Source: Butyrivibrio sp. FCS014 (GTDB lineage Bacteria > Bacillota > Clostridia > Lachnospirales > Lachnospiraceae). Taken from it: 64,000 nt of DNA. The stretch covers positions 496,001-560,000 of the forward strand of contig NZ_JAHA01000003.1 in the NCBI RefSeq assembly GCF_000526935.1. Reading direction: 5' to 3'. Shown here piece after piece: positions 3,359 through 15,508 of this stretch. Within the stretch, counting starts at the first letter, position 1. Every line of letters starts with the position of its first letter. Made by a program: the position numbers and the translations under genes. The notes beneath the pieces are model-generated. The model worked only from the letters and a program-made list of their open reading frames with translations. It was not told the origin of the DNA and ran no database searches.

Positions 3359-3751
3359 ATGGTAGGAGTTGTAATTGTTTCCCACAGTTGGAAAATTGCT
3401 GATGGCATCAAAGATCTTACAGACCAGGTTGCGGCACAGGTACCTAACATTATTGCCTGTGGCGGAATGGAAGATAAGGAGATAGGAACCGACGCTATCC
3501 GTATCGAGGAGGCTATCGTAAAAGCAAATCAGGGAGATGGAGTTGTTGTACTTGCGGATCTTGGAAGCGGAGTAATGAGTGCGGAGACAGCCAAGGATCT
3601 TCTTGAGGATGAGAATATTGACATCAGAATAGCAGATGCTCCTCTTGTTGAAGGTGCAATCGCAGCAGCTGTTGCAGCAGCCTGCGGACTTGATATCGAT
3701 AAGGTACAAGCAGCCGCCGAGCAAGCGCGGACTGTAAACAAAATAAACTAA
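3359..3751 (+). CDS. dhaM: Dihydroxyacetone kinase phosphotransfer subunit DhaM (IIA-like domain only)
   Basis: Accepts phosphate from the PTS (HPr) and hands it to ADP on DhaL. The N-terminal VVIVSHSWKIADG holds the phospho-accepting His near residue 9. Small Ala-rich repeats towards the C-terminus are typical of the EIIA-mannose-like fold. About 130 residues means only the IIA domain is present; the HPr and enzyme-I-like domains fused to enterobacterial DhaM are absent, so general HPr must supply phosphate. TTG at 3353 is a weaker alternative start. Sixteen bases separate it from dhaL. Confidence 0.9.
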   Translation: MVGVVIVSHSWKIADGIKDLTDQVAAQVPNIIACGGMEDKEIGTDAIRIEEAIVKANQGDGVVVLADLGSGVMSAETAKDLLEDENIDIRIADAPLVEGAIAAAVAAACGLDIDKVQAAAEQARTVNKIN

Positions 3752-3773
3752 TAACATTATAAGGAGGCGGAAC

Positions 3774-4769
3774 ATGAAGAAACTAATCAATGGGGTCGAC
3801 AACATCGTTGACGAGATGCTGGATGGTATGATCGCAGCTTATCCTAAGTATCTTAAGAGACTCGATGGCTTTGATGTTGTTGTAAGAGCCGGCGGCTCAG
3901 ACGGCAAAGTTGCTCTTGTTTCCGGTGGTGGATCAGGTCATGAGCCTGCACACGGCGGATTCGTTGGCAAGGGAATGCTGGATGGCGCTATCGCAGGTGC
4001 TGTATTCACATCACCTACACCCGATCAGATCTTTGAGGCTATCAAAGCTGCTAACGGTGGAAAGGGTGTTCTCCTTGTTATCAAGAACTATACCGGTGAT
4101 GTTATGAACTTTGAAATGGCTGCTGATATGGCCAGAGATGAGGGCATCGAGGTAGATCAGGTTATTACAGCCGATGACGTTGCTGTTGAGAATTCAACCT
4201 GGACAACAGGAAGAAGAGGAATCGCAGGAACAATCTTTGTACACAAACTGGCAGGCGCTTGTGCTGAGGCAGGCGGAGACCTTGCTGAGGTTAAGAGAAT
4301 TGCCGAGAAGGTTATCGCTAATGTTCGTTCAATGGGTATGGCAGTTGATGCCTGCACAGTTCCCGCAGCAGGAAAGCCCAGCTTTGATCTTGCAGAAGAT
4401 GAGATCGAGATCGGTATCGGTATCCATGGCGAGCCCGGTGTAAACCGTGAGAAGATCGGTTCTGTAAATGATATTGCTGATAAGCTTCTTGCTAAGATTT
4501 TTGCAGAAGGCATCTATAATGCAGGAGATGAGGTTGCTGTTATGGTTAATGGCATGGGCGGAACTCCTCTTATGGAGCTGTTTGTAGCCAACAAGCACAT
4601 CTCTGAAGTCCTTGCAGGCAAGAATATCAACGTATATAAGACTCTTGTAGGCAACTACATGACCTCCCTTGATATGGAAGGATTCTCCATCACACTTCTT
4701 AAGGTTGATGATGAGCTCAAGAAGTTCCTTGATGCTCCCGCTGATACACCTGCATTTGTTCAGGTATGA
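3774..4769 (+). CDS. dhaK: Dihydroxyacetone kinase, substrate-binding subunit DhaK
   Basis: Binds dihydroxyacetone covalently through a His as a hemiaminal, for phosphorylation to DHAP. The early GGGSGHEPAHGGFVGKGMLD signature lies near residues 43-62, and the substrate-binding His is in GIGIHGEPG near residue 218. Length of 331 residues is normal. GGAGG lies a few bases upstream of the ATG. Together with dhaL and dhaM this is a complete soluble kinase feeding glycolysis from dihydroxyacetone or glycerol. No glycerol dehydrogenase or DhaR/DhaQ regulator is seen nearby. Confidence 0.95.
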   Translation: MKKLINGVDNIVDEMLDGMIAAYPKYLKRLDGFDVVVRAGGSDGKVALVSGGGSGHEPAHGGFVGKGMLDGAIAGAVFTSPTPDQIFEAIKAANGGKGVLLVIKNYTGDVMNFEMAADMARDEGIEVDQVITADDVAVENSTWTTGRRGIAGTIFVHKLAGACAEAGGDLAEVKRIAEKVIANVRSMGMAVDACTVPAAGKPSFDLAEDEIEIGIGIHGEPGVNREKIGSVNDIADKLLAKIFAEGIYNAGDEVAVMVNGMGGTPLMELFVANKHISEVLAGKNINVYKTLVGNYMTSLDMEGFSITLLKVDDELKKFLDAPADTPAFVQV

Positions 4770-4807
4770 TAAGTAGTAAAACCAAATAATATTTCTTTTC
4801 CATATTT

Positions 4808-4852
4808 AAACTCCTCCGAAGCCTTCTTCCGGGCTTTTCGGGGGAGTTTTTC
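4808..4852 (+). terminator. Rho-independent terminator of the dha operon
   Basis: AACTCCTCCGAAGCC and GGGCTTTTCGGGGGAGTT form a long imperfect stem followed by TTTTTC. It sits 38 bp after the dhaK stop. Confidence 0.85.
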
Positions 4853-4895
4853 ATTTAATTTCATTTAATAGACTTAATAGACTTAATAGGGTCAC

Positions 4896-4962
4896 ACATA
4901 CAACTATTCGCAAAACACAGGTTTAACGAATAGTTAAACCTGCGTTTTGCGAATTCATATGT
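4896..4962. repeat. Long inverted repeat between convergent genes
   Basis: Arms at 4906-4927 and 4933-4954 pair over 22 bp with a single mismatch around a 5-base loop. The pairing resumes further out (ACATA at 4896-4900 with TATGT at 4958-4962). The core reads GGTTTAAC-GAATA-GTTAAACC. There is no T-run on either strand, so it is not a standard terminator. It lies between the dhaK terminator and the 3' end of the convergent carboxypeptidase gene. Confidence 0.85.
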
Positions 4963-4975
4963 ATTTACTCCGTAC

Positions 4976-4997
4976 GGTTTAACTGATTCGTTAAACC
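4976..4997. repeat. Second, inverted copy of the palindromic core
   Basis: GGTTTAAC-TGATTC-GTTAAACC. Read on the minus strand it matches the core of the larger repeat at 4919-4940 except for one extra base in the loop. The two palindromes are therefore inverted copies of each other about 36 bp apart. Confidence 0.8.
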
Positions 4998-5014
4998 TGG
5001 AAATATTCTATATA

Positions 5015-6148
5015 TTAGCTCGTGTACGTTTCGTAGATGTCTACATGATCGTAAATGCATCTCCAGGAGCTCCAGGCGTCTGCTGTTACGCAGATATAAT
5101 GTGATCCGTCGTTTGAAACCTGGTAACTTGCTCCGCAGCATCCTGACTGATTTACAAAACCCGTTTTAGCTCCAACAACTTCACCGTGAGTATCTTTATC
5201 CTCAATTCTTCTAAGAAACCAGTTTGAAATCTGGATTCCTTCCGGATGCTGAGCTGTTGATGTTGTAAGGTATGTTCTTGCGTTTAAAACCTCGTGACAC
5301 AGCTTGTTTTCTTCGGCTGCCTTCAGTATCATGGCCATATCCATCAATGTACAGTAATGATCCTTGTCGTAAACACCCACACAATTGGTAAAATGCGCTG
5401 TATCTGAAAGTCCGAGTTCTTCGAGTTTTTCATTCATAAGCTCTACAAAAGCTTCCTGTGAACCGGCAACATATTCAGCAAGGCATAATGCCGCATCAGC
5501 TCCTGACGGAAGGATTGTTCCGTAAAGAAGATCTCTTATGGTAACAGTTTCTCCAACTTCAAATCCCACCTGGCTGCAATCGTTGGAAAATACGTAGTCT
5601 CCTATTTCTCTGGTCATTGTGAAAGTATTATCAATGTCATCAAGATGCTCCACAGCCACCAATAATGTAAGGATTTTGGTCATTGAGGCCGGATTTATTC
5701 TCACATTTCCATCTTTTGACGCAACAACCTTGCCGGTATCCAAATTAATTAGTAGACCGTAATTACTTTTCACATTATCGCTTGAGATATATGCGGTATT
5801 ACTGTCCTGCTCAACGATATAACCATCAAAAAAGCTGGCTGATTCATCGGATCTATCCTGATATTTGCTGATCTGGGACAGATCGACATCATTCACGATG
5901 GTATCAACTATTTCTATCTGCTGAGGTACCTCTTCAATGGTAACTTCAGTAGAGGCTTCATCAAGCTTAGAATTTCTTGATTTGCTGATTCCGTGAATAA
6001 TAAAGACAGTTCCCACTGTAACCGCCAAAAGCACGGTTGCAAGCGAACTTAGATGAATGATTATTTCCTTTTTTCTTCTGGATCTATATTCTGACGCAGT
6101 AAGTCTTTTACCGTCCTTCCTGCGATAATTAGCTCTTGAATTCCCCAA
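5015..6148 (-). CDS. D-alanyl-D-alanine carboxypeptidase (DacF/PBP5-like), membrane-anchored
   Basis: Trims the terminal D-Ala of peptidoglycan pentapeptides outside the cell. Counting from the upstream ATG at 6178: a basic cytoplasmic N-terminus, one membrane helix at about 43-62, a linker, then the penicillin-binding fold with SMTK (catalytic Ser ~165), SGAD (second motif, Ala where SxN has Asn, ~225) and KTG (~338-340). The anchor is N-terminal rather than the usual C-terminal amphipathic helix. The TTG start chosen here has GGGAG eight bases upstream, and a promoter (-10 at 6183-6188) would put the transcript start at about the upstream ATG, which has no ribosome site. Confidence 0.85.
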   Translation of the reverse strand: MGNSRANYRRKDGKRLTASEYRSRRKKEIIIHLSSLATVLLAVTVGTVFIIHGISKSRNSKLDEASTEVTIEEVPQQIEIVDTIVNDVDLSQISKYQDRSDESASFFDGYIVEQDSNTAYISSDNVKSNYGLLINLDTGKVVASKDGNVRINPASMTKILTLLVAVEHLDDIDNTFTMTREIGDYVFSNDCSQVGFEVGETVTIRDLLYGTILPSGADAALCLAEYVAGSQEAFVELMNEKLEELGLSDTAHFTNCVGVYDKDHYCTLMDMAMILKAAEENKLCHEVLNARTYLTTSTAQHPEGIQISNWFLRRIEDKDTHGEVVGAKTGFVNQSGCCGASYQVSNDGSHYICVTADAWSSWRCIYDHVDIYETYTS

Positions 6149-6182
6149 CTTTGAATCTCCCGTAAAAAAAATATGCATTGTT

Positions 6183-6212
6183 ATCTTACCATTTTTTTAA
6201 AGGGTACATCAA
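6183..6212 (-). promoter_or_regulatory. Promoter of the carboxypeptidase gene
   Basis: Minus strand TTGATG (6207-6212), 18-bp spacer, TAAGAT (6183-6188). The predicted transcript start, about 6176, lies at the upstream ATG, which favours the downstream TTG start at 6148. Confidence 0.55.
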
Positions 6213-6214
6213 GG

Positions 6215-6244
6215 TTAAAACAATACAATATTTAGTGGTATAAT
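6215..6244 (+). promoter_or_regulatory. Promoter of the Xer-type recombinase gene
   Basis: TTAAAA (6215-6220), 18-bp spacer, perfect TATAAT (6239-6244). The predicted transcript start is about 6251, on the second in-frame ATG of the gene. It is nested back-to-back with the carboxypeptidase promoter. Confidence 0.5.
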
Positions 6245-7339
6245 ATGTACATGCAGACCAATGGAAATGACGCAAAATATTATAACGAACAGGACAGAAT
6301 AAATACCCTTAAGATGCGTGAAGTCTTAAGCTGCCTTCCCTCTTTTTGTAAGCAGTATTTCAGAGGAATTGAGCCTACTACCTCAGCCAGGACAAGACTT
6401 GGCTACGCATACGATCTGAGGGTGTTTTTTGAGTACCTTCATAATGTGAATCCTTCTCTTAAGAATATTGAAGTTAAGAATTTCAAGCTGGATGTTCTTG
6501 AGATGATCGAGCGCGAGGATATTGAGGAATATCTTGAGTATCTCTCACTTTATGAGAAGCAGGAAAAAGAAACAACGAAGGAAAGGACCAATACAGAACA
6601 GGGTAAAAAACGTAAAATGTCAGCCCTTCGTTCCATGTTTTCCTACTTTTATAAGGCCGAGCTTATCAGTAAGAACACTCCCGAGCTTGTGAACATGCCC
6701 AAACTGCACGAACACGAGATCATAAGACTTGAGCCAAACGAGGTAGCTATACTTCTTGATCAGGTTGAAGCCGGTGAAAAGCTCACTAAATCACAGCTTA
6801 AATATCATGAGAAGACCAAAGTAAGGGACGTAGCTCTTCTTACTCTCCTTTTAGGCACCGGAATCCGTGTTTCGGAATGTGTTGGCATAGATATCGAAGA
6901 TATAGATTACGATACCAACGGACTGAATATTCACAGAAAAGGCGGCTATAATACAATTGTTTACTTCCCTGATGAAGTAAGACAAGCTCTTCTTGATTAT
7001 TATGAGGAAAGAAAAACCATAATACCCGTAGAAGGCAATGAAAACGCCTTTTTCCTGTCTCTTCAGAATAAGAGGATATCTGTAAGAGCCGTTGAAAAAC
7101 TGGTGAAAAAATACGCCAGAAACGTCACTACACTTAAGAAGATAACTCCCCATAAGCTTCGCAGCACCTTTGGTACCAATCTTTATAAGGAATCCGGAGA
7201 CATTTACCTTGTTGCGGATGTTCTTGGCCACAAGGATGTTAATACTACAAGAAAGCATTATGCCGCTCAGGATGACGAAAACCGTCGCAGAGCTGCCAGA
7301 ATGGTCAAATTAAGAGAAGACATTGATGATAACAAATAA
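6245..7339 (+). CDS. Tyrosine recombinase, XerS/XerC-like
   Basis: Site-specific recombinase of the Xer type, probably resolving chromosome dimers at dif. An N-terminal SAM-like core-binding domain covers about residues 25-150, and the catalytic domain follows. The full catalytic set is visible: Arg in GIRVSE, Lys in RKGGYN, His and Arg in PHKLRSTF, His in LGHKDV and the nucleophilic Tyr in RKHYAA. Its 364 residues and long N-terminus resemble the stand-alone XerS type more than the ~300-residue XerC/D. No phage or transposon genes and no att-like repeats border it, so a housekeeping role is favoured. ATG 6245 or 6251 could start; neither has a good ribosome site. Confidence 0.8.
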   Translation: MYMQTNGNDAKYYNEQDRINTLKMREVLSCLPSFCKQYFRGIEPTTSARTRLGYAYDLRVFFEYLHNVNPSLKNIEVKNFKLDVLEMIEREDIEEYLEYLSLYEKQEKETTKERTNTEQGKKRKMSALRSMFSYFYKAELISKNTPELVNMPKLHEHEIIRLEPNEVAILLDQVEAGEKLTKSQLKYHEKTKVRDVALLTLLLGTGIRVSECVGIDIEDIDYDTNGLNIHRKGGYNTIVYFPDEVRQALLDYYEERKTIIPVEGNENAFFLSLQNKRISVRAVEKLVKKYARNVTTLKKITPHKLRSTFGTNLYKESGDIYLVADVLGHKDVNTTRKHYAAQDDENRRRAARMVKLREDIDDNK

Positions 7340-7343
7340 AAAA

Positions 7344-7371
7344 GCGCCGGCTGCAAAGATGCAGTCGGCGT
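7344..7371 (-). terminator. Terminator between convergent genes
   Basis: CGCCGGCTGC pairs with GCAGTCGGCG (one G-T pair), with loop AAAGAT. A run of A on the plus strand gives a T-run on the minus strand, so it mainly ends the DHH gene and may also stop transcription from the recombinase gene. Confidence 0.8.
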
Positions 7372-7386
7372 ATTATTGTGCCAAAA

Positions 7387-8910
7387 TTACACTATCGTAT
7401 AGGTCTTTTTAAATATCTTCTTTTCTATGATGAATACGTTATTGGGATCATCTACGCTGACACATAGAAAATCTCCGCTTCTTCCAATCATATAATTCTC
7501 GCTGTCCCAGTACGGGAAGACTTTCGTGGTCCTTGTCAGCTTCCTGGCATAAACGTTCATGTCTCCCGTTGATATACAGCCTTTGACATTCTTCATAAGT
7601 GAATAGGTCTTGCCGTTATCGGCATCCTTTATAGTAGGCGTATAGTCCAGGTTCAATGAAAACTTCTTGCCGGTCTTGATGTAAGCACTCTTGAATTCCT
7701 CATCAGTAATGGCTGATACATCGCCCTTTATGCCGATAATAAGAACTGTATTGCTCTTTATCTCCAGATTGTTGTCCCCGGAAAGGGTTCTGACTATGGC
7801 CATATTCCCTTCAGGAACAAGATCCTGAGGCCTTACATAACCAACTACAAGAGGACTCTTCACATATTTGGTCATGTCAGATAAATCTATTTTGGTCTTC
7901 CTGGCATAGATAATGTCTGAATTTTCAAAGTAATCCTTCATCCTCATCCTAATAATATTGGATGTGGAATACTTGGCAGATTCATCATCTATTTCCGTAT
8001 AGGAGGGATAAACCTTCTTTAAAAGCTCTGTCTTAATTATTCCGCCGGCCTTTTCCTTGTGACCGCCGCCTGATCCTATCTTATTGGCAATAAATGAAGC
8101 AAGTTCATCAGCTTTGGTCTCTGATACGCAGCTCCTAACGGAGAATTTAACGCCAAAATTCAGCTTGCTGTAAACAAGGCAGACATCTACGGAATCTACG
8201 GCAACTATAAAATCACCGATAAGTCCCAGAATATTGGGATCGCAGGGATCGGACTTAAGTATCGCATAGTTATTGTCCTTGTGATACTCAACTCCAAGCA
8301 TAGCTACACCGGCTATTCTGGCTTCCTTAAGAGTCAGGTTCATATTCTTAAGTCTTAGTATCAGGGCATGGTCATAATCAAGATCCTCGATCATATCCCT
8401 GTCCAGAGGGTGCGAAATCTCGGAAAAAGCATTGGTATCGGAATATAATCCATAGTAAAGCGCTGTAGCAATCTTCTTATCAATAAAATCAGCTTCATTT
8501 TCTATCTTAAGAAGATTCCATATAACAGTACAGCAGCTTCCAAGGTTACTTCTTACTTCGTTGAGTTTAGGGAGGTTACCGGATACCTGGTGATGATCTA
8601 TTACGGCGACTTCTGTGGCATTGAACTTACGTACATTGCCTTCTCCGTACTGACAATCGGTCAAAAGAAGCAGCTCGGGCTTTGAACGCAGCTTCTCAAC
8701 ATATTCGATCTCTATCCCAAGCTTCTTTATAAGATAAACAAGATTGCTCTTACTGATCTCAAAATTACCGGAATAAATGAATCTGACCTTAACACCATGC
8801 TTCTCAAAATATCTATACAAAACATATCCTGAGCAGATAGCATCTGCATCAGGATTATCATGGCACTGTATGGTGATTGATTTGTGATCCAATAAACTGG
8901 AAAGCTTCAT
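7387..8910 (-). CDS. DHH-family phosphoesterase
   Basis: A DHH/DHHA1 protein of 507 residues. The metal-binding motifs are HDNPDADA near residue 17, an Asp in LLLTDCQYGEG near 110, VIDHHQ near 127 and GLYSDT near 175. The DHHA1 substrate-binding motif GSGGGHKEKAGG lies near 280-290. The last ~170 residues have no domain I recognise. Related short proteins (NrnA type) cleave nano-RNA or pAp/cyclic-dinucleotide products, but the extra C-terminal part makes the substrate uncertain. There is no membrane segment, so it is not GdpP. Its leader is embedded in the terminator of the upstream gene. Confidence 0.8.
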   Translation of the reverse strand: MKLSSLLDHKSITIQCHDNPDADAICSGYVLYRYFEKHGVKVRFIYSGNFEISKSNLVYLIKKLGIEIEYVEKLRSKPELLLLTDCQYGEGNVRKFNATEVAVIDHHQVSGNLPKLNEVRSNLGSCCTVIWNLLKIENEADFIDKKIATALYYGLYSDTNAFSEISHPLDRDMIEDLDYDHALILRLKNMNLTLKEARIAGVAMLGVEYHKDNNYAILKSDPCDPNILGLIGDFIVAVDSVDVCLVYSKLNFGVKFSVRSCVSETKADELASFIANKIGSGGGHKEKAGGIIKTELLKKVYPSYTEIDDESAKYSTSNIIRMRMKDYFENSDIIYARKTKIDLSDMTKYVKSPLVVGYVRPQDLVPEGNMAIVRTLSGDNNLEIKSNTVLIIGIKGDVSAITDEEFKSAYIKTGKKFSLNLDYTPTIKDADNGKTYSLMKNVKGCISTGDMNVYARKLTRTTKVFPYWDSENYMIGRSGDFLCVSVDDPNNVFIIEKKIFKKTYTIV

Positions 8911-8966: not shown

Positions 8967-9383
8967 TTATTTGAATTCAGATGAATAATAAGGAACAATA
9001 AGGGCTTCACCGGCCTTGAGATCATCTCTGTCAAATATTCCGTTGATATTGCAAATCTCATTGATATAGGAATTCATATCATGGTAATGCTCATCGGAAT
9101 AATTGGCCTGTGCGATGTTCCACATAGTATCATCGGCGTGAACTGTAATTGTCTTATAGTACTTGTATTCAAAGGTAGCATCATCAGCCTGAGCATTTAT
9201 AAGCAAAGATGATGCTGCAAAAACACCGCCAAATACAATAAAAGCAGCGATCAGGCTTACCAGAAGAAGCTGTCTTCTGTAAATCTTCTGCCTTCTGATC
9301 TTATTCCTGCGAATACGAATCTCACTCTCGCTGAAATATCTGGGATTGTTGTATAAACTTGCTGCTCTCATTGCCTCGCTCAT
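8967..9383 (-). CDS. YneA-like LysM protein, probable SOS cell-division inhibitor
   Basis: A small single-pass membrane protein of 138 residues: a basic cytoplasmic N-terminus, one membrane helix at about 40-60, then an extracellular LysM peptidoglycan-binding domain (TITVHADDTMWNIAQ to about the C-terminus). This is the architecture of YneA, which delays septation during DNA damage in Bacillus. The functional reading is strengthened by LexA boxes around its promoter and by lexA lying 5.5 kb away. GAGG precedes the ATG chosen here by seven bases; the ATG two codons upstream abuts GAGGT and is less likely. Confidence 0.75.
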   Translation of the reverse strand: MSEAMRAASLYNNPRYFSESEIRIRRNKIRRQKIYRRQLLLVSLIAAFIVFGGVFAASSLLINAQADDATFEYKYYKTITVHADDTMWNIAQANYSDEHYHDMNSYINEICNINGIFDRDDLKAGEALIVPYYSSEFK

Positions 9384-9417
9384 ATCCATACCTCACAGAA
9401 AAGCCAAACAAATGTTA

Positions 9418-9431
9418 CGAACAACTGTTCT
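9418..9431. promoter_or_regulatory. LexA box A, downstream of the yneA-like promoter
   Basis: CGAAC-AACT-GTTCT fits the Firmicute LexA consensus CGAAC-N4-GTTCG with one mismatch. It lies just after the -10 element. Confidence 0.75.
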
Positions 9432-9437
9432 GAAATT

Positions 9438-9466
9438 ATATTAACAAACGTCTGTTCTGTTGTCAA
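9438..9466 (-). promoter_or_regulatory. Promoter of the yneA-like gene
   Basis: Minus strand TTGACA (9461-9466, perfect), 17-bp spacer, TAATAT (9438-9443). LexA box B fills the spacer, so a bound repressor would block polymerase. Confidence 0.75.
9445..9458. promoter_or_regulatory. LexA box B, in the promoter spacer
   Basis: Minus strand AGAAC-AGAC-GTTTG, matching CGAAC-N4-GTTCG at 8 of 10 positions. Confidence 0.65.
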
Positions 9467-9470
9467 TAAA

Positions 9471-9500
9471 TTTCGAACATATTTTCCGAACAAATATTCG
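9471..9500. repeat. Left copy of a 30-bp direct repeat carrying tandem LexA boxes
   Basis: It contains CGAACATATTTTCC (9474-9487, good left half only) and CGAACAAATATTCG (9487-9500, one mismatch to consensus). It matches 14796-14825 at 28 of 30 positions on the same strand, the first 24 without a difference. The two copies bracket the four-gene operon between them. Confidence 0.85.
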
Positions 9501-9539
9501 TGACGCTTTCTTATAAAGATATGTATATGTAAAGCTTAT

Positions 9540-11201
9540 TTATTCTGATTTATACTTGAGGCACAGCATCGTGATGTCATCAAACTGAGGCGCATCGCCA
9601 ACAAAGGCATCGATGTCATTCTTAACATTCTTGATTATATCTTCTACATTCGCATCCGGATCCTTATTAAGGGCAGCCAGGAGTCTGTCATTTCCAAAGA
9701 GCTCATCGTTCTTGTTGGTTGCTTCCGTAACGCCGTCTGTATAGCACATAAGCGTATCTCCGGGATGAAGCTCAAATTCATGCTCTCTGAACCGCATTCC
9801 CTCCATGGTAGCAACAGCCGGTGAATGCTTGTACACAACAAGCTCAAAGCTTCCGTCAGCTCTTCTGAGCGCAGGATGCTCGTGGCCTGCGTTTGCCGCA
9901 ATTCCTTTTCCTGTTCTTATATCAAGAATTGCAAGCCAGACGGTTACGAAAAGCTCAGCCTCGTTGCCTTCACAAAGCTGTTCGTTGGCATAGCTCAATA
10001 TTTCCGAAGGAGTACCTCCCGTAATAGCTCTGTTCTTGATAAGAGTTTTCGCAATGACCATGAAAAGAGCTGCCGGAACACCTTTACCCGAAACATCAGC
10101 CACTACCAGTCCAAGATGATCATTGTCAACCATAAAGAAATCATAGAAGTCTCCACCCACTTCCTTGGCAGGATCCATGGAGGCATACAGATCAAAGGAA
10201 TCGATATCAGGGAACGGCGGGAAGATCCTGGGAAGCATATCGGCCTGGATCTGGGTAGCAACATTAAGCTCAGCGCCAATCCTCTCCTTCTCGGCTGTGA
10301 TACTGGTGATATCGTTGATATAGGTCTCAATGTCTTTTTCCATCTGTTTCATGGCATCAGACAGGTTTTCTATCTCGTCACCGGTATGAATCTCAAGCTT
10401 TTCGAATACATTCTTGTTCTCGGATTCCGTATAGCTTAATGCTGCATCTGAAAGTGAATTGATGGGCTTAACAACAGTTCTTCTTATGAAGTGTATGTAG
10501 ATCAGACTGAATACCAGAACAATAATAACGGTTGTTCCAAGAAGAATTGCTGCAAATGCGGCAACTATAGCCTTAACATCATTCATTGAGATGTCAACAA
10601 AGCTGTAGGCAAACACGTTTCCGTCGTCATCATATATGGGAGCTCCTGCTGATACCAGCCACCCGTATTCCTGGGTATTGGTTATATATGCGGGAAAACC
10701 GGTATCGGGATTATCCAGAATGAACATATTGCTTTCGTACAGATCATCAAAATCACCGGGAACACAGGGGTCACCTGAACCGTCAGCTATATATATGGTC
10801 TTCAGCACGTCGGCGTCCACATAGATAAGATAGACCGATTCCACATCGTTTTTGATCCTGATAGTATCCAGCTGATATAAGAGTTCCTTATAATCAGGAT
10901 CCTCCAAAAGAGCCGAGAAGTTGGAAATATATGCCTCATATCCGGCATCATCCATATCTTTTTTATAGGAAACAGCAAAAATGTCTGCCACTTTCTCTTT
11001 TAACCGCAGGGCTGCATTCCTTGTAATTGCCACACTTACGGTCTCAGCTAGATTAGTGACATTCTTCTCATACTCCGCATTGATTGTCTTATCAAAAATG
11101 ATCTTTGCAATGGATCCTTCTATGGCACTTAAAAGGACCACCATGATGAGAATAGAAATAACAGTTTTAAAACCTAATGATAACTTTTTTACCTTCTTCA
11201 T
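9540..11201 (-). CDS. Membrane-bound sensor PP2C phosphatase (SpoIIE/RsbU type)
   Basis: Predicted Ser/Thr phosphatase that would dephosphorylate an anti-sigma-antagonist-like partner. Layout of the 553 residues: membrane helix ~12-35, extracellular sensor ~36-215 (dCache-like size), second helix ~216-238, HAMP linker ~240-300, a short coiled coil, then a PP2C/SpoIIE catalytic domain ~320-550. All metal-binding Asp motifs are present: EVGGDFYDF, VADVSGKG, YTDGVTEA and FDDITM. Its start overlaps the stop of the MATE fusion gene by four bases (ATGA). Last gene of the operon; I see no terminator after it. Confidence 0.88.
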   Translation of the reverse strand: MKKVKKLSLGFKTVISILIMVVLLSAIEGSIAKIIFDKTINAEYEKNVTNLAETVSVAITRNAALRLKEKVADIFAVSYKKDMDDAGYEAYISNFSALLEDPDYKELLYQLDTIRIKNDVESVYLIYVDADVLKTIYIADGSGDPCVPGDFDDLYESNMFILDNPDTGFPAYITNTQEYGWLVSAGAPIYDDDGNVFAYSFVDISMNDVKAIVAAFAAILLGTTVIIVLVFSLIYIHFIRRTVVKPINSLSDAALSYTESENKNVFEKLEIHTGDEIENLSDAMKQMEKDIETYINDITSITAEKERIGAELNVATQIQADMLPRIFPPFPDIDSFDLYASMDPAKEVGGDFYDFFMVDNDHLGLVVADVSGKGVPAALFMVIAKTLIKNRAITGGTPSEILSYANEQLCEGNEAELFVTVWLAILDIRTGKGIAANAGHEHPALRRADGSFELVVYKHSPAVATMEGMRFREHEFELHPGDTLMCYTDGVTEATNKNDELFGNDRLLAALNKDPDANVEDIIKNVKNDIDAFVGDAPQFDDITMLCLKYKSE

Positions 11202-12955
11202 ATTTTCACCACCATTGTATTGAATCCTTGATATCTCCTATAGTAAAAGGACTTTGCCTTTTGCTTTATAACATCCATGCCAAGGGCATTGAAATCCGTC
11301 TCAGAATCTTCATCGTCATTAACAACAGCTTTTTCCATACTAAAAGGGTCGAAGGTTGTTGCATTGTCCCTTATATGAAGCGAGAACTCACCTTTATCCG
11401 ATGCGACCACCGTAAGCTGTATCTCCCCGGGTACAGGCATTTTCTGAGAAAATCCTTTTGCCATAATGGCTGAGCACATCTCTTCCACAGTCATCTGTAC
11501 ATAATATTGCTGTTTGACATTGGCATCCCACTTCTCGCAAAAGCCGTCTATCTGCTCGGTAACCGTGCCGATTTTCTCAGGTTCGTTAAATAGTGTTGCT
11601 GTAAATATTCTCTCCGGCTCAAGACGCTTTGTCTTTTTCATGATAAAAGAGATATAAATTAATATGATCAGGAACGATACGCACTCGGTGATCGGGTATA
11701 CAAACCAGAAAGCGTCTCTTCCGATGGCAATACAAATAAAAGTAACAGGAAGAATTATGGCAACGCCTCTTAAGGTAGAGAGTATAAATGCCGGTACAAA
11801 TATGCTCCTTGATGTATAGTAATTTGCAATGACCATGTTCAGCCCCACAAATATGATGCACAGACTGAATATCCTTATGGCAAATGTGCCCATTGCAATG
11901 GCATAATTCAGCTGGATTCCGAACAGCCGGCAGATCCACGGTGCCAGTATCCAAATCAGAGCTGTATAAAATATAGCATTTCCTGCAGCGATAACTCCTG
12001 CCCTTGCCTGCATTCCGTCACACTCGCTGTAGTTGCATTCTCCTTCATAAGTGCTGAGAATGGGCTGCGTTGCCTGATTAAGTGCTCCGAATATATAGAT
12101 CATCAGATTGCTCAGATTCTGAATGATATCAAATATAGCAACACCTGTTTCTCCAGCAAGCCTTACCATGGCGTTGTTTCCGATCCATATGAAGGCGAAG
12201 GAATAAATATAGCTGATACAGGATGATATTCCCGTTTTAAAGCTCTTTCCAATATCGAAGAATCCGGGTCTGAAGGGGAAAAACCTTAGATGAGATTTCT
12301 TTTGCAAAAGAAATACGAACTGTACGCAGCTTGTCAGCACAACTCCGATAAAAGTCGCCAGGCCAGCTCCGAAAACGCCCATGTTTAGGAAAAGGACCAG
12401 TATTATATTCAGGGAAAAATCGGTGATATTTCCAATTGTGGAACATATCGATGCCTCTTTTTCCATATCATCGTTTCTAAGATAGTAACCAAGGCTGTAG
12501 TCAAAAAAGAAAAACGGTGCCGCGGTTAGAATGAGCTGTAGATAGGTCCTTGCGGCTTCCTTTAGGAAATCTCCCGAGGCCTTGGCTCCCAGGATAAAGA
12601 GCACGTCATCGATAAAAATATTCCCAAGGACCGCTATTGCTATGCTTATGACCATAAGCACGGCGAAAACTCCCTGGAAGGATTTCACAGCCTTTTCTTC
12701 GTCGCCTTCCGCCATCCTTCTTGCGTACATGATGGATCCGCCCATTCCAAAGGAGTGCATGATCACATTAAAAAACATGTACACGGGAATGGAAAAAGCT
12801 ATGGCAGCAAGGCCAAGCGTTCCCATTCTGTTTCCCACAACCAGCGCATCCGCCATATCGGCGATGGCAAAAACGATCGCGGAAATGATCGCAGGAATAT
12901 ACTGCCTTACAAACATCTGCCTTGTGAAGTTTGAAACTTTACCCTTTATTATCAT
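11198..12955 (-). CDS. MATE-family transporter fused to an RsbW-like ATPase domain
   Basis: Residues 1 to ~450 form a polytopic MATE transporter with about twelve hydrophobic segments; such proteins export organic compounds with Na+ or H+. The last ~130 residues are a cytoplasmic GHKL ATP-binding domain of the anti-sigma kinase (RsbW/SpoIIAB) type: TVEEMCSAI holds the N-box Glu, IRDNATTFDP the G1 region and ALGMDVI the G2 region. Such domains normally phosphorylate an STAS antagonist, which PP2C phosphatases reverse, and a PP2C gene follows with an ATGA overlap. The ATG used here overlaps the preceding stop by four bases; a TTG three codons upstream is in frame. Confidence 0.88.
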   Translation of the reverse strand: MIIKGKVSNFTRQMFVRQYIPAIISAIVFAIADMADALVVGNRMGTLGLAAIAFSIPVYMFFNVIMHSFGMGGSIMYARRMAEGDEEKAVKSFQGVFAVLMVISIAIAVLGNIFIDDVLFILGAKASGDFLKEAARTYLQLILTAAPFFFFDYSLGYYLRNDDMEKEASICSTIGNITDFSLNIILVLFLNMGVFGAGLATFIGVVLTSCVQFVFLLQKKSHLRFFPFRPGFFDIGKSFKTGISSCISYIYSFAFIWIGNNAMVRLAGETGVAIFDIIQNLSNLMIYIFGALNQATQPILSTYEGECNYSECDGMQARAGVIAAGNAIFYTALIWILAPWICRLFGIQLNYAIAMGTFAIRIFSLCIIFVGLNMVIANYYTSRSIFVPAFILSTLRGVAIILPVTFICIAIGRDAFWFVYPITECVSFLIILIYISFIMKKTKRLEPERIFTATLFNEPEKIGTVTEQIDGFCEKWDANVKQQYYVQMTVEEMCSAIMAKGFSQKMPVPGEIQLTVVASDKGEFSLHIRDNATTFDPFSMEKAVVNDDEDSETDFNALGMDVIKQKAKSFYYRRYQGFNTMVVKI

Positions 12956-13824
12956 CGCAAGCAACCTGTATACATATCGAGCATTCTGACGGGCCTCATA
13001 AGCTCTTTTGCCCGCCGAAGCCCCTCAACCCCAAGGTCTTCTTCCCAGTTAAAAAATCTTACGTTTTCTGCGTGAGACTTTGCATATTCCTGCCTTAGAT
13101 AATAGGACAGGCCCTGAACATTCTCCTTGCACTTCTGAAGGCAACAGTCAACCAGCTCCTCATCCAGCGCAAATCCGGCTATTACCGCATAGGGCTCATC
13201 ATCCATGATTATGGCTATTCCCTTAAGGTCAAGCTCATCCATGTGACTTATGATGGTGGTAGTGGCCGATCTGTCTATTACTTCTTCATAATTTCTCTTG
13301 TTTTTGTCCCAGGTCCTCGTAATATCCAAAAGCTCATCTTTGGAAATGGAATGTATGTCTACCGTCCTTAGCTCATGTCCCTTAACAAACTTGTTCACGT
13401 GCCCTCTGTCCTTGGCAAAATGCTTTCCGGGAAGGCTCTCCATGATCTGTCTGTCCATGATATATTCGCTGTTATCGGGAGCAGGGATTATCTCAAACTT
13501 CCCGGGGAAATATTTCTCGAGAAAAGAAACATCACCTTCCGTTACGTACTCAAAAACCAGCCTTTCCCCCGTTGAAATGAGCCTTTCAATAAACTCTTTT
13601 TTGGCCTCATCACTTCCTACGGGAAAGAACCAGAATCTGTCCTCCTGGGTGGATTTGACGGCGTAAATATCATTTCCTGTGTATATGGAAAGTTCCATGT
13701 CCTTTTTCCAGATAAAAAGAGATTTGAAGGAGTGAGCCGCATCATGGGCGGAATACTTATAATAAATCTCTCCCACAATGTCAGCCTGACTTAAGTCAAT
13801 CTCCGCTGTTTCTATATGTGACAT
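12952..13824 (-). CDS. DUF2156 domain protein (GNAT-like, MprF C-terminal relative)
   Basis: A soluble protein of 290 residues related to the DUF2156 family, a tandem GNAT-like fold also found as the catalytic part of lysyl-phosphatidylglycerol synthases (MprF) and in aminoacyl-tRNA-dependent transferases. Matching features are the early HDAAHSFKSLFIWK region, a central RRATD-like segment (KDRGHVNKFVKGHE) and the C-terminal NWEEDLGVEGLRRAKE motif. With no membrane part it is a stand-alone acyl- or aminoacyl-transferase candidate of unknown substrate. It starts three bases after the formyltransferase stop and overlaps the MATE gene by four bases. Confidence 0.8.
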   Translation of the reverse strand: MSHIETAEIDLSQADIVGEIYYKYSAHDAAHSFKSLFIWKKDMELSIYTGNDIYAVKSTQEDRFWFFPVGSDEAKKEFIERLISTGERLVFEYVTEGDVSFLEKYFPGKFEIIPAPDNSEYIMDRQIMESLPGKHFAKDRGHVNKFVKGHELRTVDIHSISKDELLDITRTWDKNKRNYEEVIDRSATTTIISHMDELDLKGIAIIMDDEPYAVIAGFALDEELVDCCLQKCKENVQGLSYYLRQEYAKSHAENVRFFNWEEDLGVEGLRRAKELMRPVRMLDMYTGCLR

Positions 13825-13827
13825 AAT

Positions 13828-14634
13828 TTAGATCTTTCGAATCCTTTCACAGACAATGTAGCCGTCTTTTATTTTTAGTGCGCCCTCCGGGATATTTTGA
13901 GCATCTCCTTCTCTGAAGGCAGCGGCATCTATCATTTCAAATTCTTTGCCGGTTTTTTTGTCGATATAGAATACCTCATAGCTTCTGAAAGCCCTCAGGA
14001 TAAGATCTGCCCTGTCAAAAGAGCTATCGCTTGCAACCGTGAAGTCTTCTTTGGTGGGCATTTCCCAGTATTCGGCTTTTCCCTCCTGGGGATAGGCATT
14101 ATCCCATAGGTTGTCAAAATCTGAAACCAGGCGTTTTACCATGTCAGGAATAAGACTCCACTGACGTTTTGTTAAAGATATAAGATCATCTTTATCAGGG
14201 TACACAGGGCATTTTTCCTGAAGAAGTATCTTTCCCGTATCCAGTTCTTTTTCCATCTGATGCATGGTAACGCCGCTCTCATCAAGGCCTTTTAATATGG
14301 TCAGGGGCATTGGCCAGGCTCCTCTTCCGAAGGGCAAAAGAGCGGGATGCGTATTTACAATCTTAAGCTCCGGAATTACAGGAACCTTGTGATAATAGCC
14401 TCCGAATAAAACAAATTTGCACCCCATGTTTACTAACTCGTACAGATCATCTGTTGTAAGCTTTTTGATCTCATAGGGAATATTGTGCTCTTTGGCAAAT
14501 TCAATTGTCTTTGTATTAAATTCCGTATAATTGTCTGTCTTGCAGGTGAAAATTTTGATAATTTCGCATCCGGTATCATAGAGGCTTGTAAGAACCGGAT
14601 AGAGAATATCTATTCCAACATATGCGACTTTCAT
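13828..14634 (-). CDS. Formyltransferase-family protein
   Basis: A 268-residue enzyme of the 10-formyl-tetrahydrofolate formyltransferase fold (Fmt, PurN, sugar N-formyltransferases). The catalytic triad is intact: Asn94 and His96 in VNTHPALLPFGRG and Asp132 in ELDTGKILL. It lacks the usual length and C-terminal tRNA-binding domain of Fmt (~310 residues); instead ~90 C-terminal residues resemble the small OB-like tail of sugar formyltransferases. It probably formylates an amino group on a small molecule or sugar. First gene of the four-gene operon. I could not find a convincing promoter in the 160 bp upstream. Confidence 0.8.
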   Translation of the reverse strand: MKVAYVGIDILYPVLTSLYDTGCEIIKIFTCKTDNYTEFNTKTIEFAKEHNIPYEIKKLTTDDLYELVNMGCKFVLFGGYYHKVPVIPELKIVNTHPALLPFGRGAWPMPLTILKGLDESGVTMHQMEKELDTGKILLQEKCPVYPDKDDLISLTKRQWSLIPDMVKRLVSDFDNLWDNAYPQEGKAEYWEMPTKEDFTVASDSSFDRADLILRAFRSYEVFYIDKKTGKEFEMIDAAAFREGDAQNIPEGALKIKDGYIVCERIRKI

Positions 14635-14795
14635 ATTAAAACCTGGTCCTTATATATTTATACGAACAAAAAAAGATAAATGACATATATTTAATTGTAT
14701 CATCTGCGATAGGAAAAAATCATAGTGAAATGCCGCATTTTTCTTAAGTTTTTCTAAATATTGTCAAAATTGGAAACAATTTATAAAAAGGATAC

Positions 14796-14825
14796 TTTCG
14801 AACATATTTTCCGAACAAACATTTG
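14796..14825. repeat. Right copy of the 30-bp direct repeat with tandem LexA boxes
   Basis: It carries CGAACATATTTTCC (14799-14812) and CGAACAAACATTTG (14812-14825). Only two of 30 positions differ from the left copy at 9471. The second box overlaps the -35 of the lexA promoter, the expected arrangement for LexA autoregulation. Confidence 0.85.
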
Positions 14826-14852
14826 CATTATAAGGCTCCCGTATGCTATACT
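14823..14852 (+). promoter_or_regulatory. lexA promoter
   Basis: TTGCAT (14823-14828), 18-bp spacer, extended -10 TGC-TATACT (14844-14852). The leader to the start codon is about 30 bases and contains GGGAGG as ribosome site. Confidence 0.6.
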
Positions 14853-14890: not shown

Positions 14891-15508
14891 ATGTCCAAGG
14901 GTAAGATATCACCTAAACAGAAGGAAATACTAGACTTTATCAAAGAGCAGACTCTTCAAAGAGGCTTTCCGCCTGCAGTAAGAGACATCTGCAAAGCCGT
15001 TAATCTTAAATCCACTTCTTCTGTTCACTCTCACCTGGAAACTTTAGAGAAGAACGGATATATCAGAAGAGATCCAACCAAGCCCCGTGCCATTGAGATC
15101 TGCGACGACGGCTTCAATATGGTGAGAACCGAGATTGTCAGCATACCGGTTGTGGGCCAGGTTGCCGCCGGTACACCCATTCTTGCTGAAGAGAATATCG
15201 ATTCCTATATTCCCATTCCTGCAGAGATGTGTCCCAGAGGGGCAGATGCTTTCATCCTCAATGTTAAGGGCGATTCCATGATCAACGCAGGTATTTACAA
15301 TGGTGACAAGCTCTTCGTTCAGGTTTGCAACACTGCCAAGAACGGCGATCAGGTTGTAGCTCTTATAGATGACTCCGCTACAGTTAAGACCTATTATAAG
15401 GAGAAGGACCATATCAGACTTCAACCGGAGAACGATTCCATGGATCCCATCATCGTAGATGACTGCAAGATCCTTGGTAAGGTATTCGGAGTAATGAGAT
15501 TTTATTAA
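14891..15508 (+). CDS. lexA: SOS-response transcriptional repressor LexA
   Basis: Represses DNA-damage genes and cleaves itself when RecA is activated. The N-terminal winged helix covers ~1-70 (PAVRDICKAVNLKSTSSVHS as recognition part). The autocleavage Ala-Gly is in GQVAAGTPI near residue 94, the catalytic Ser in VKGDSMINAG near 130 and the catalytic Lys in SATVKTYY near 167. Length of 205 residues is typical. Two tandem LexA boxes lie upstream. The yneA-like gene, usually its divergent neighbour in Bacillus, is here 5.5 kb away beyond a four-gene operon. Confidence 0.96.
   Translation: MSKGKISPKQKEILDFIKEQTLQRGFPPAVRDICKAVNLKSTSSVHSHLETLEKNGYIRRDPTKPRAIEICDDGFNMVRTEIVSIPVVGQVAAGTPILAEENIDSYIPIPAEMCPRGADAFILNVKGDSMINAGIYNGDKLFVQVCNTAKNGDQVVALIDDSATVKTYYKEKDHIRLQPENDSMDPIIVDDCKILGKVFGVMRFY

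Follow-up and report, generated by a model that had tools for sequence, protein, structure and literature searches.

The window analysed here is a stretch of 64,000 nucleotides from Butyrivibrio sp. FCS014 (contig NZ_JAHA01000003.1, positions 496,001 to 560,000). The two genes of interest, lexA and a yneA-like gene for a candidate SOS cell-division inhibitor, are divergent and 5.5 kb apart, not adjacent, and the four-gene block between them is flanked by two copies of a tandem LexA operator. In all likelihood the block was inserted at an ancestral yneA/lexA operator and the operator was duplicated, each arm keeping one copy. The ancestor would have had a compact divergent pair of yneA and lexA on either side of the operator. 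The four-gene operon, probably of horizontal origin, would have entered at this shared operator in the common ancestor of the window genome and Butyrivibrio sp. SIG346, and at least about 30 bp of operator would have been duplicated, one copy per junction. The yneA arm would have retained its own promoter and one copy, and the lexA arm its own promoter and the other. LexA is expected to bind both copies, so that SOS control would be retained by each arm.

A set of 79 Butyrivibrio genomes was searched for the locus. A lexA orthologue (at least 71% identity) was present in 63 of them, the other 16 having no match or distant ones only. At 52 of the 63 loci yneA was divergent from lexA with no block between, 35-634 bp apart as measured between tblastn match edges, from which true gene starts may differ. 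The block stood between the two genes at two loci, those of the window and of a metagenome-assembled genome (MAG) of Butyrivibrio sp. SIG346 (G051, SVGA01000020.1). A preliminary description of this DNA had proposed the split of an ancestral shared operator, and the sister genomes agree with it, having just one copy of the repeat between the two divergent genes. It had also considered that the four genes might lie between lexA and yneA in all relatives, against which stand the 52 loci without and the two with the block, and that many other SOS genes might have the same operator. The genome was found to hold two copies only, and the recA box (AGAACATCCGTTCG, 14 bases from the start; RecA identity confirmed) is unlike the tandem operator.

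A degenerate 27-base operator pattern, with up to two mismatches, was detected in 33 of the 79 genomes. Two separate copies were present only in the window genome and the SIG346 MAG. G019 gave two overlapping hits (an extra unit), and the remaining operator-positive genomes had one copy each. Except for the two left copies, the operator was at most 150 bp upstream of lexA wherever that gene could be located. The lexA operators at four loci (L040, L042, L044, L045) appeared by eye to have three 13-base units and not two, from which it follows that unit number varies between species. In an alignment of both arms with nine relatives that have an empty site (seven belong to the near clade), homology on the left ran from the yneA start via TTGTCAA to the far side of the operator, beyond which it was no longer clear. 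On the right it began at the operator and included the lexA -10. Both promoters therefore appear intact, the operator being the one element clearly present twice. The tandem operator of the relatives includes part of the lexA -35 and lies a short way upstream of the yneA -35; additional boxes occur in both the promoter spacer and the leader of yneA. An assembly artefact was ruled out, as two diverged assemblies, window and SIG346, agree.

Two copies of the tandem LexA operator

Positions 9471-9500 (TTTCGAACATATTTTCCGAACAAATATTCG) and 14796-14825 (TTTCGAACATATTTTCCGAACAAACATTTG) form a same-strand repeat with 28 of 30 bases identical, the first 24 without exception; the two mismatches fall at repeat positions 25 and 29. 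Direct comparison thus gave the same figures as the preliminary description. The 21-base core, CGAACATATTTTCCGAACAAA, matched the 4.09 Mb genome at just two places when up to three mismatches were allowed, and a reversed-core control had no match at the same setting. The preliminary description had also read two tandem LexA boxes in each copy, and in both copies two CGAAC-N4-GTTCG-type boxes with a 13-base period and one base in common were found. They are CGAACATATTTTCC and CGAACAAATATTCG on the left and CGAACATATTTTCC and CGAACAAACATTTG on the right, with one or two mismatches to the consensus per box. The placement of one copy by the yneA-like promoter and the other by the lexA promoter was likewise borne out by the positions. 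The left copy (9471..9500, no strand assigned) is upstream of the yneA -35, TTGACA (9466-9461, minus strand), the repeat starting 4 bases and the first box 7 bases upstream of it. In the right copy (14796..14825, no strand assigned) the second box overlaps TTTGCA (14822-14827), a hexamer resembling a -35 of lexA; downstream of it, at 14844-14852, comes TGCTATACT, an extended -10. On our reading TTTGCA and TGCTATACT form a candidate lexA promoter, a site that the promoter scan did not list.

Between the window and the SIG346 MAG, the two 27-base operators showed no mismatch in 54 positions, compared with 56 of 346 (16%) in the surrounding intergenic DNA (P about 7e-5, assuming independent sites). 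Both copies look kept by selection, as judged from this comparison. Selection may have held both because an arm stripped of its copy would unbalance lexA autoregulation or release the division inhibitor. The same two positions separate left and right copies in both genomes; gene conversion has therefore not erased the differences since the two genomes split. Among the 33 copies that are single or on the lexA side, 31 have T at repeat position 29, so that TTTG stands at the lexA -35; the other two, from G059 and G077, are followed by a third box, which bears TTTG. Both left copies have C at position 29, which gives a TTCG end (ATTCG) nearer to the GTTCG half-site. An explanation for the closer half-site could be release from the lexA -35 promoter constraint. 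The left copy would have shifted later, when it no longer served as lexA -35, and the right copy can presumably serve lexA as previously.

The gene lexA (14891..15508, plus strand) was identified by NCBIfam TIGR00498 (224.3 bits, cut-off 110.95), and its protein has Peptidase_S24 and LexA_DNA_bind domains. The yneA-like gene (8967..9389, minus strand) was assigned as a candidate SOS cell-division inhibitor from its LysM domain, its sub-threshold YneA match and its position divergent from lexA in relatives. The protein has a C-terminal LysM (Pfam E 4.4e-05, 23.8 bits, cut-off 20.9) and, judged by eye, an N-terminal membrane segment; its match to NCBIfam YneA NF010723 (E 1.3e-10, 41 bits) is under the cut-off of 60. 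The candidate yneA promoter, TTGACA-17-TAATAT (9438..9466, minus strand), was named from a promoter scan, which gave two sites in the region where shuffles give 1.6, together with the conserved TTGTCAA. Its spacer contains the box-like GAACAGACGTTTG, and TTGTCAA is kept in relatives. A separate LexA-type box, CGAACAACTGTTCT, in the yneA leader (9418..9431, no strand assigned) aligned with relatives and is not a repeat copy.

A LexA gene beside a divergent, LexA-controlled gene for a division inhibitor or a similar protein is described for sosA-lexA of Staphylococcus aureus (PMC6851548), for Clo1313_1450-lexA of Clostridium thermocellum (PMC8457756) and for yneA-lexA of Bacillus subtilis (PMC6851548, PMC8457756). 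The 52 compact Butyrivibrio loci have this arrangement. The window differs from it in that the pair is 5.5 kb apart, an operon lies between and the operator is present twice. Another operon within such a pair together with a doubled operator was not found in the literature searched, and neither was work treating Butyrivibrio, LexA and the SOS response together; either may exist in print. Beyond the preliminary description, the analysis adds a block descent unlike that of the host, the conservation of both copies and the insertions of other lineages at the same place. The locus offers a before-and-after case of a bidirectional control region split by incoming DNA with the control elements of both genes retained; ancestral state, event and outcome can all be read from relatives. 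It also provides a case, open to testing, in which an operator was duplicated and the copy freed from promoter overlap then specialised.

The four-gene operon and its descent

The block consists of four minus-strand genes (9540-14634) which overlap or almost do so. In order of transcription they encode a formyltransferase-domain protein (13828..14634; PF00551, E 2.1e-17), an LPG_synthase_C domain protein (12952..13824; PF09924, E 2.7e-27), a MATE transporter whose C-terminal part resembles an anti-sigma-type HATPase domain (11198..12964; MatE, E 1.3e-24) and a SpoIIE-type PP2C phosphatase with a probable HAMP domain (9540..11201; SpoIIE PF07228, E 1e-48). The HATPase_c_2 match (E 4.3e-06, 27.2 bits) is just under its cut-off of 27.4, and the HAMP match (E 0.0011, 19.7 bits) is under its cut-off of 25. 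A candidate operon promoter, TTAAGA-17-TATGAT (14719..14747, minus strand), is about 50 bp from the right operator. It has 9 of 12 matches, and the scan found two sites against 2.5 in shuffles, which is weak alone; the stretch is well conserved in the alignment of window genome and SIG346 MAG. Direct LexA repression of the operon is unlikely in view of this conserved promoter of its own at that distance, and the operon is probably not LexA-repressed. The four proteins gave no PADLOC match at E 0.001, and on this ground the block was rejected as a defence system.

The SpoIIE phosphatase, combined with a possible anti-sigma-type ATPase domain that scores just under its cut-off, recalls SpoIIE/HATPase/STAS partner-switching modules, and SiaA was the best NCBIfam match of the phosphatase (76 bits, cut-off 700). 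Unlike in these modules, the ATPase-like domain forms one protein with a MATE transporter, no STAS gene is beside the block (no STAS-like open reading frame adjoins it among those listed in the window, by eye), and the unit includes the formyltransferase and the LPG_synthase_C protein. A named collection contained 45 loci with a relative of the formyltransferase, whose titles name Lachnospiraceae, Oscillospiraceae and other Clostridia; 33 matched all four genes, and 21 of the 45 had a separate STAS-gene match. The unit of formyltransferase, LPG_synthase_C, MATE-HATPase fusion and SpoIIE protein was seen to be widespread in Clostridia (L095-L103, L152-L196), where it is possibly a transporter run by partner switching.

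Descent of the block was compared with that of its host. In a core tree of five neighbouring proteins, the window and SIG346 grouped with G004 and G064 (support 0.94), neither of which gave a block match. The tree built from the four block proteins placed them with Lachnospiraceae Rumen_Coassembly_mag_2069 and G062/G071 (support 0.994), apart from the blocks of the nearer relatives G067, G002, G006 and G022, which carry a related block at another common locus. The core alignment had 1,249 columns; G052 was retained with only 204 residues (lexA alone), as were G002, G024, G033, G062, G071, G067 and G064 with 709-969 residues each. G017 and Rumen_Coassembly_mag_2069 were partial in the block alignment. 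The block was probably gained horizontally, given the conflict of its tree with the species (core) tree.

Within the genus set, the MATE-HATPase protein was present in 13 genomes (E 1e-60) and the formyltransferase in 11 (E 1e-20). A family-wide search at E 1e-150 found the block in one of 397 genomes, the window's own; the limit is strict, at most three candidates were scored per genome, and weaker relatives exist. A plasmid source was sought by formyltransferase tblastn in 72,556 plasmid records, of which 177 matched, all below 60% identity and, among the matches listed, at 24.7-29.9%. At the common locus of relatives the block in L098/L099 has, relative to the outer genes, the opposite orientation to that in L100/L101.

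The inserted operon is transcribed towards yneA, and no rule-based terminator was found between them in the window. The strict stem rule found none in ten loci and missed one evident imperfect hairpin, and it was replaced by a folding scan. This gave weak hairpins of -5.2 and -6.7 kcal/mol in window and SIG346, far downstream in the yneA leader. Among eight other blocks, in which the next gene is not yneA, a strong hairpin with a T-run was present in L096 and L098 and a weak one or none in six, so that the missing terminator is not peculiar to the window and SIG346. On a speculative reading, the left operator might act as a LexA roadblock that in undamaged cells shields yneA from operon transcription and is lifted when LexA is cleaved, and, equally speculatively, the boxes after the left operator might be included in it as LexA sites. 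If true, the roadblock would couple an envelope operon to SOS division arrest.

Alternative origins of the two copies

A staggered break with fill-in, a template switch or a single crossover would each give the observed result. A single crossover of Campbell type, by which a circle or other DNA with the block beside an operator was integrated by homologous recombination at the operator, would be a mechanism for the insertion and duplication favoured here, not a different history. It gives direct repeats at both junctions without loss of either arm, as seen. However, about 30 bp is short for the homology, and no donor was found: among the 45 formyltransferase-relative loci only SIG346 had a lexA/yneA match (window proteins as queries at E 1e-5, in flanks of up to 9 kb, several of them shortened by contig ends). 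The crossover is a possible route, though not the expected one. The block could also have been relocated from elsewhere in the lineage and not acquired, as the related block at another common locus in the same-clade genomes G067, G002, G006 and G022 might suggest. The MATE proteins of these relatives are only 54-56% identical to that of the window, their blocks group apart and the window genome has a single block copy at E 1e-60, which makes relocation improbable.

Direct repeats bracketing an insert are also seen with transposon target-site duplications and with IMEX elements at dif. The window repeat is much longer than usual transposon target-site duplications, and the insert differs from both kinds of element in having no transposase or recombinase, no inverted repeats above shuffles and little dif likeness. 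Site-specific integration, in which a tyrosine recombinase would have used the operator as attachment site in an IMEX-like manner and the 30-bp repeats would be half-sites, fits with a repeat of about dif length, partly palindromic by eye, and with the nearby XerS-like gene (6245-7339) and putative dif (4905-4932). The right-copy region had 16 of 28 bases in common with the putative dif, and only 21 of 500 shuffles did as well; for the left-copy region the figure was 14 of 28, which as many as 251 and 241 per 500 shuffles attained. No recombinase gene was found within the block (open reading frame list and Pfam search of the four genes), and the occurrence of the repeat in relatives is accounted for by the lexA operator. 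Block ends (250 bp each side) were compared in the window, SIG346 and eight other block copies, none of which had a comparable flanking repeat. A long direct repeat was found only in window and SIG346 (score 25; maxima of 20 shuffles 10 and 11); direct matches in L097 and L103 (score 12, shuffle maximum 10) were taken as chance, and no inverted repeat across the ends exceeded the shuffles. Recombinase action on the operator is accordingly quite improbable, slightly more so than relocation. LexA boxes can evolve quickly, and one arm might have retained the ancestral operator while the other re-evolved it. Such convergence is contradicted by the sequence, as 24 bases in a row, including the N4 bases, are identical and match the relatives' single copy; it is hardly credible.

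Several observations weigh against insertion with duplication of the operator, or limit it. Eleven of the 63 lexA loci were not compact: six had no yneA found, two had both genes on the same strand, one had another insertion and two had the block. Two of the six lie near a contig end, and for three only 1.5 kb upstream was fetched. The 46 genomes without an operator match at the stringency used are uninformative. The arrangement was seen in two genomes only, one of them a MAG, and represents a single event. About 30 bp is a lower bound for the duplication, as the flanks of a longer one could have decayed. The comparison of operators with flanks, besides treating sites as independent, mixes functional and free bases. 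Finally, neither the 160 bp that separate the formyltransferase gene from the right operator nor the 39 bp that separate spoIIE from the left one had an evident match in other blocks by eye, which makes any placing of the insert ends tentative.

Other insertions and chromosomal setting

Other DNA was also found between yneA and lexA. In G066 (L124, about 3440-7500), 4.4 kb with other genes lies between them together with a conserved element. The insertion has genes for an aldo-keto-reductase-like protein (weak matches only), for a MATE transporter (184 bits against a cut-off of 147) and for a small protein that matched no family; no doubled operator was found there. At the loci with other insertions the tandem operator looks split by eye, with one box-like sequence on each side, and not doubled. 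Comparing lineages that split the same region differently could show which arrangements are tolerated by SOS autoregulation.

The conserved element was found between yneA and lexA at nine loci. Examples of the element are at L059:3047-3229(-), L067:2978-3160(-) and L124:7463-7645(-). It is about 110 nt long, occurs once per genome and is small-RNA-like, with the C-rich CCCCCTCATAAGAAAA followed by a terminator-like hairpin. With up to three mismatches it was detected in 14 of the 79 genomes; it is between the two genes in one clade and elsewhere in G008, G076, G077 and probably G059. No Rfam match up to E 1 was obtained at the four loci searched, and by RNAalifold one of 18 pairs had changes on both sides, giving slight covariation support.

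At about 5 kb in the window the GC skew changes sign, positive before and negative after. At the switch is a putative dif site, TATTCGCAAAACACAGGTTTAACGAATA (4905-4932), with an inverted near-copy at 4928-4955. The 28-base site is unique in the genome (up to three mismatches) and identical in G051, G043 and G049. The XerS-like recombinase gene (6245-7339) scored 193 bits against NF003462 (cut-off 267). In streptococci, XerS is described as acting at a nearby single-recombinase dif (PMC5357621, PMC2731167). The SOS pair thus has a probable position 4.5-10 kb from the terminus. Twelve loci of relatives (L038, L039, L041, L049-L051, L053-L058) have a different Xer gene, about 31-34% identical to that of the window, near a different dif-like site, TTTTCGCAAAATTCTAGTTTTACGAAAA or close to it. 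With the window's own pair this makes two alternative xer/dif modules within one genus.

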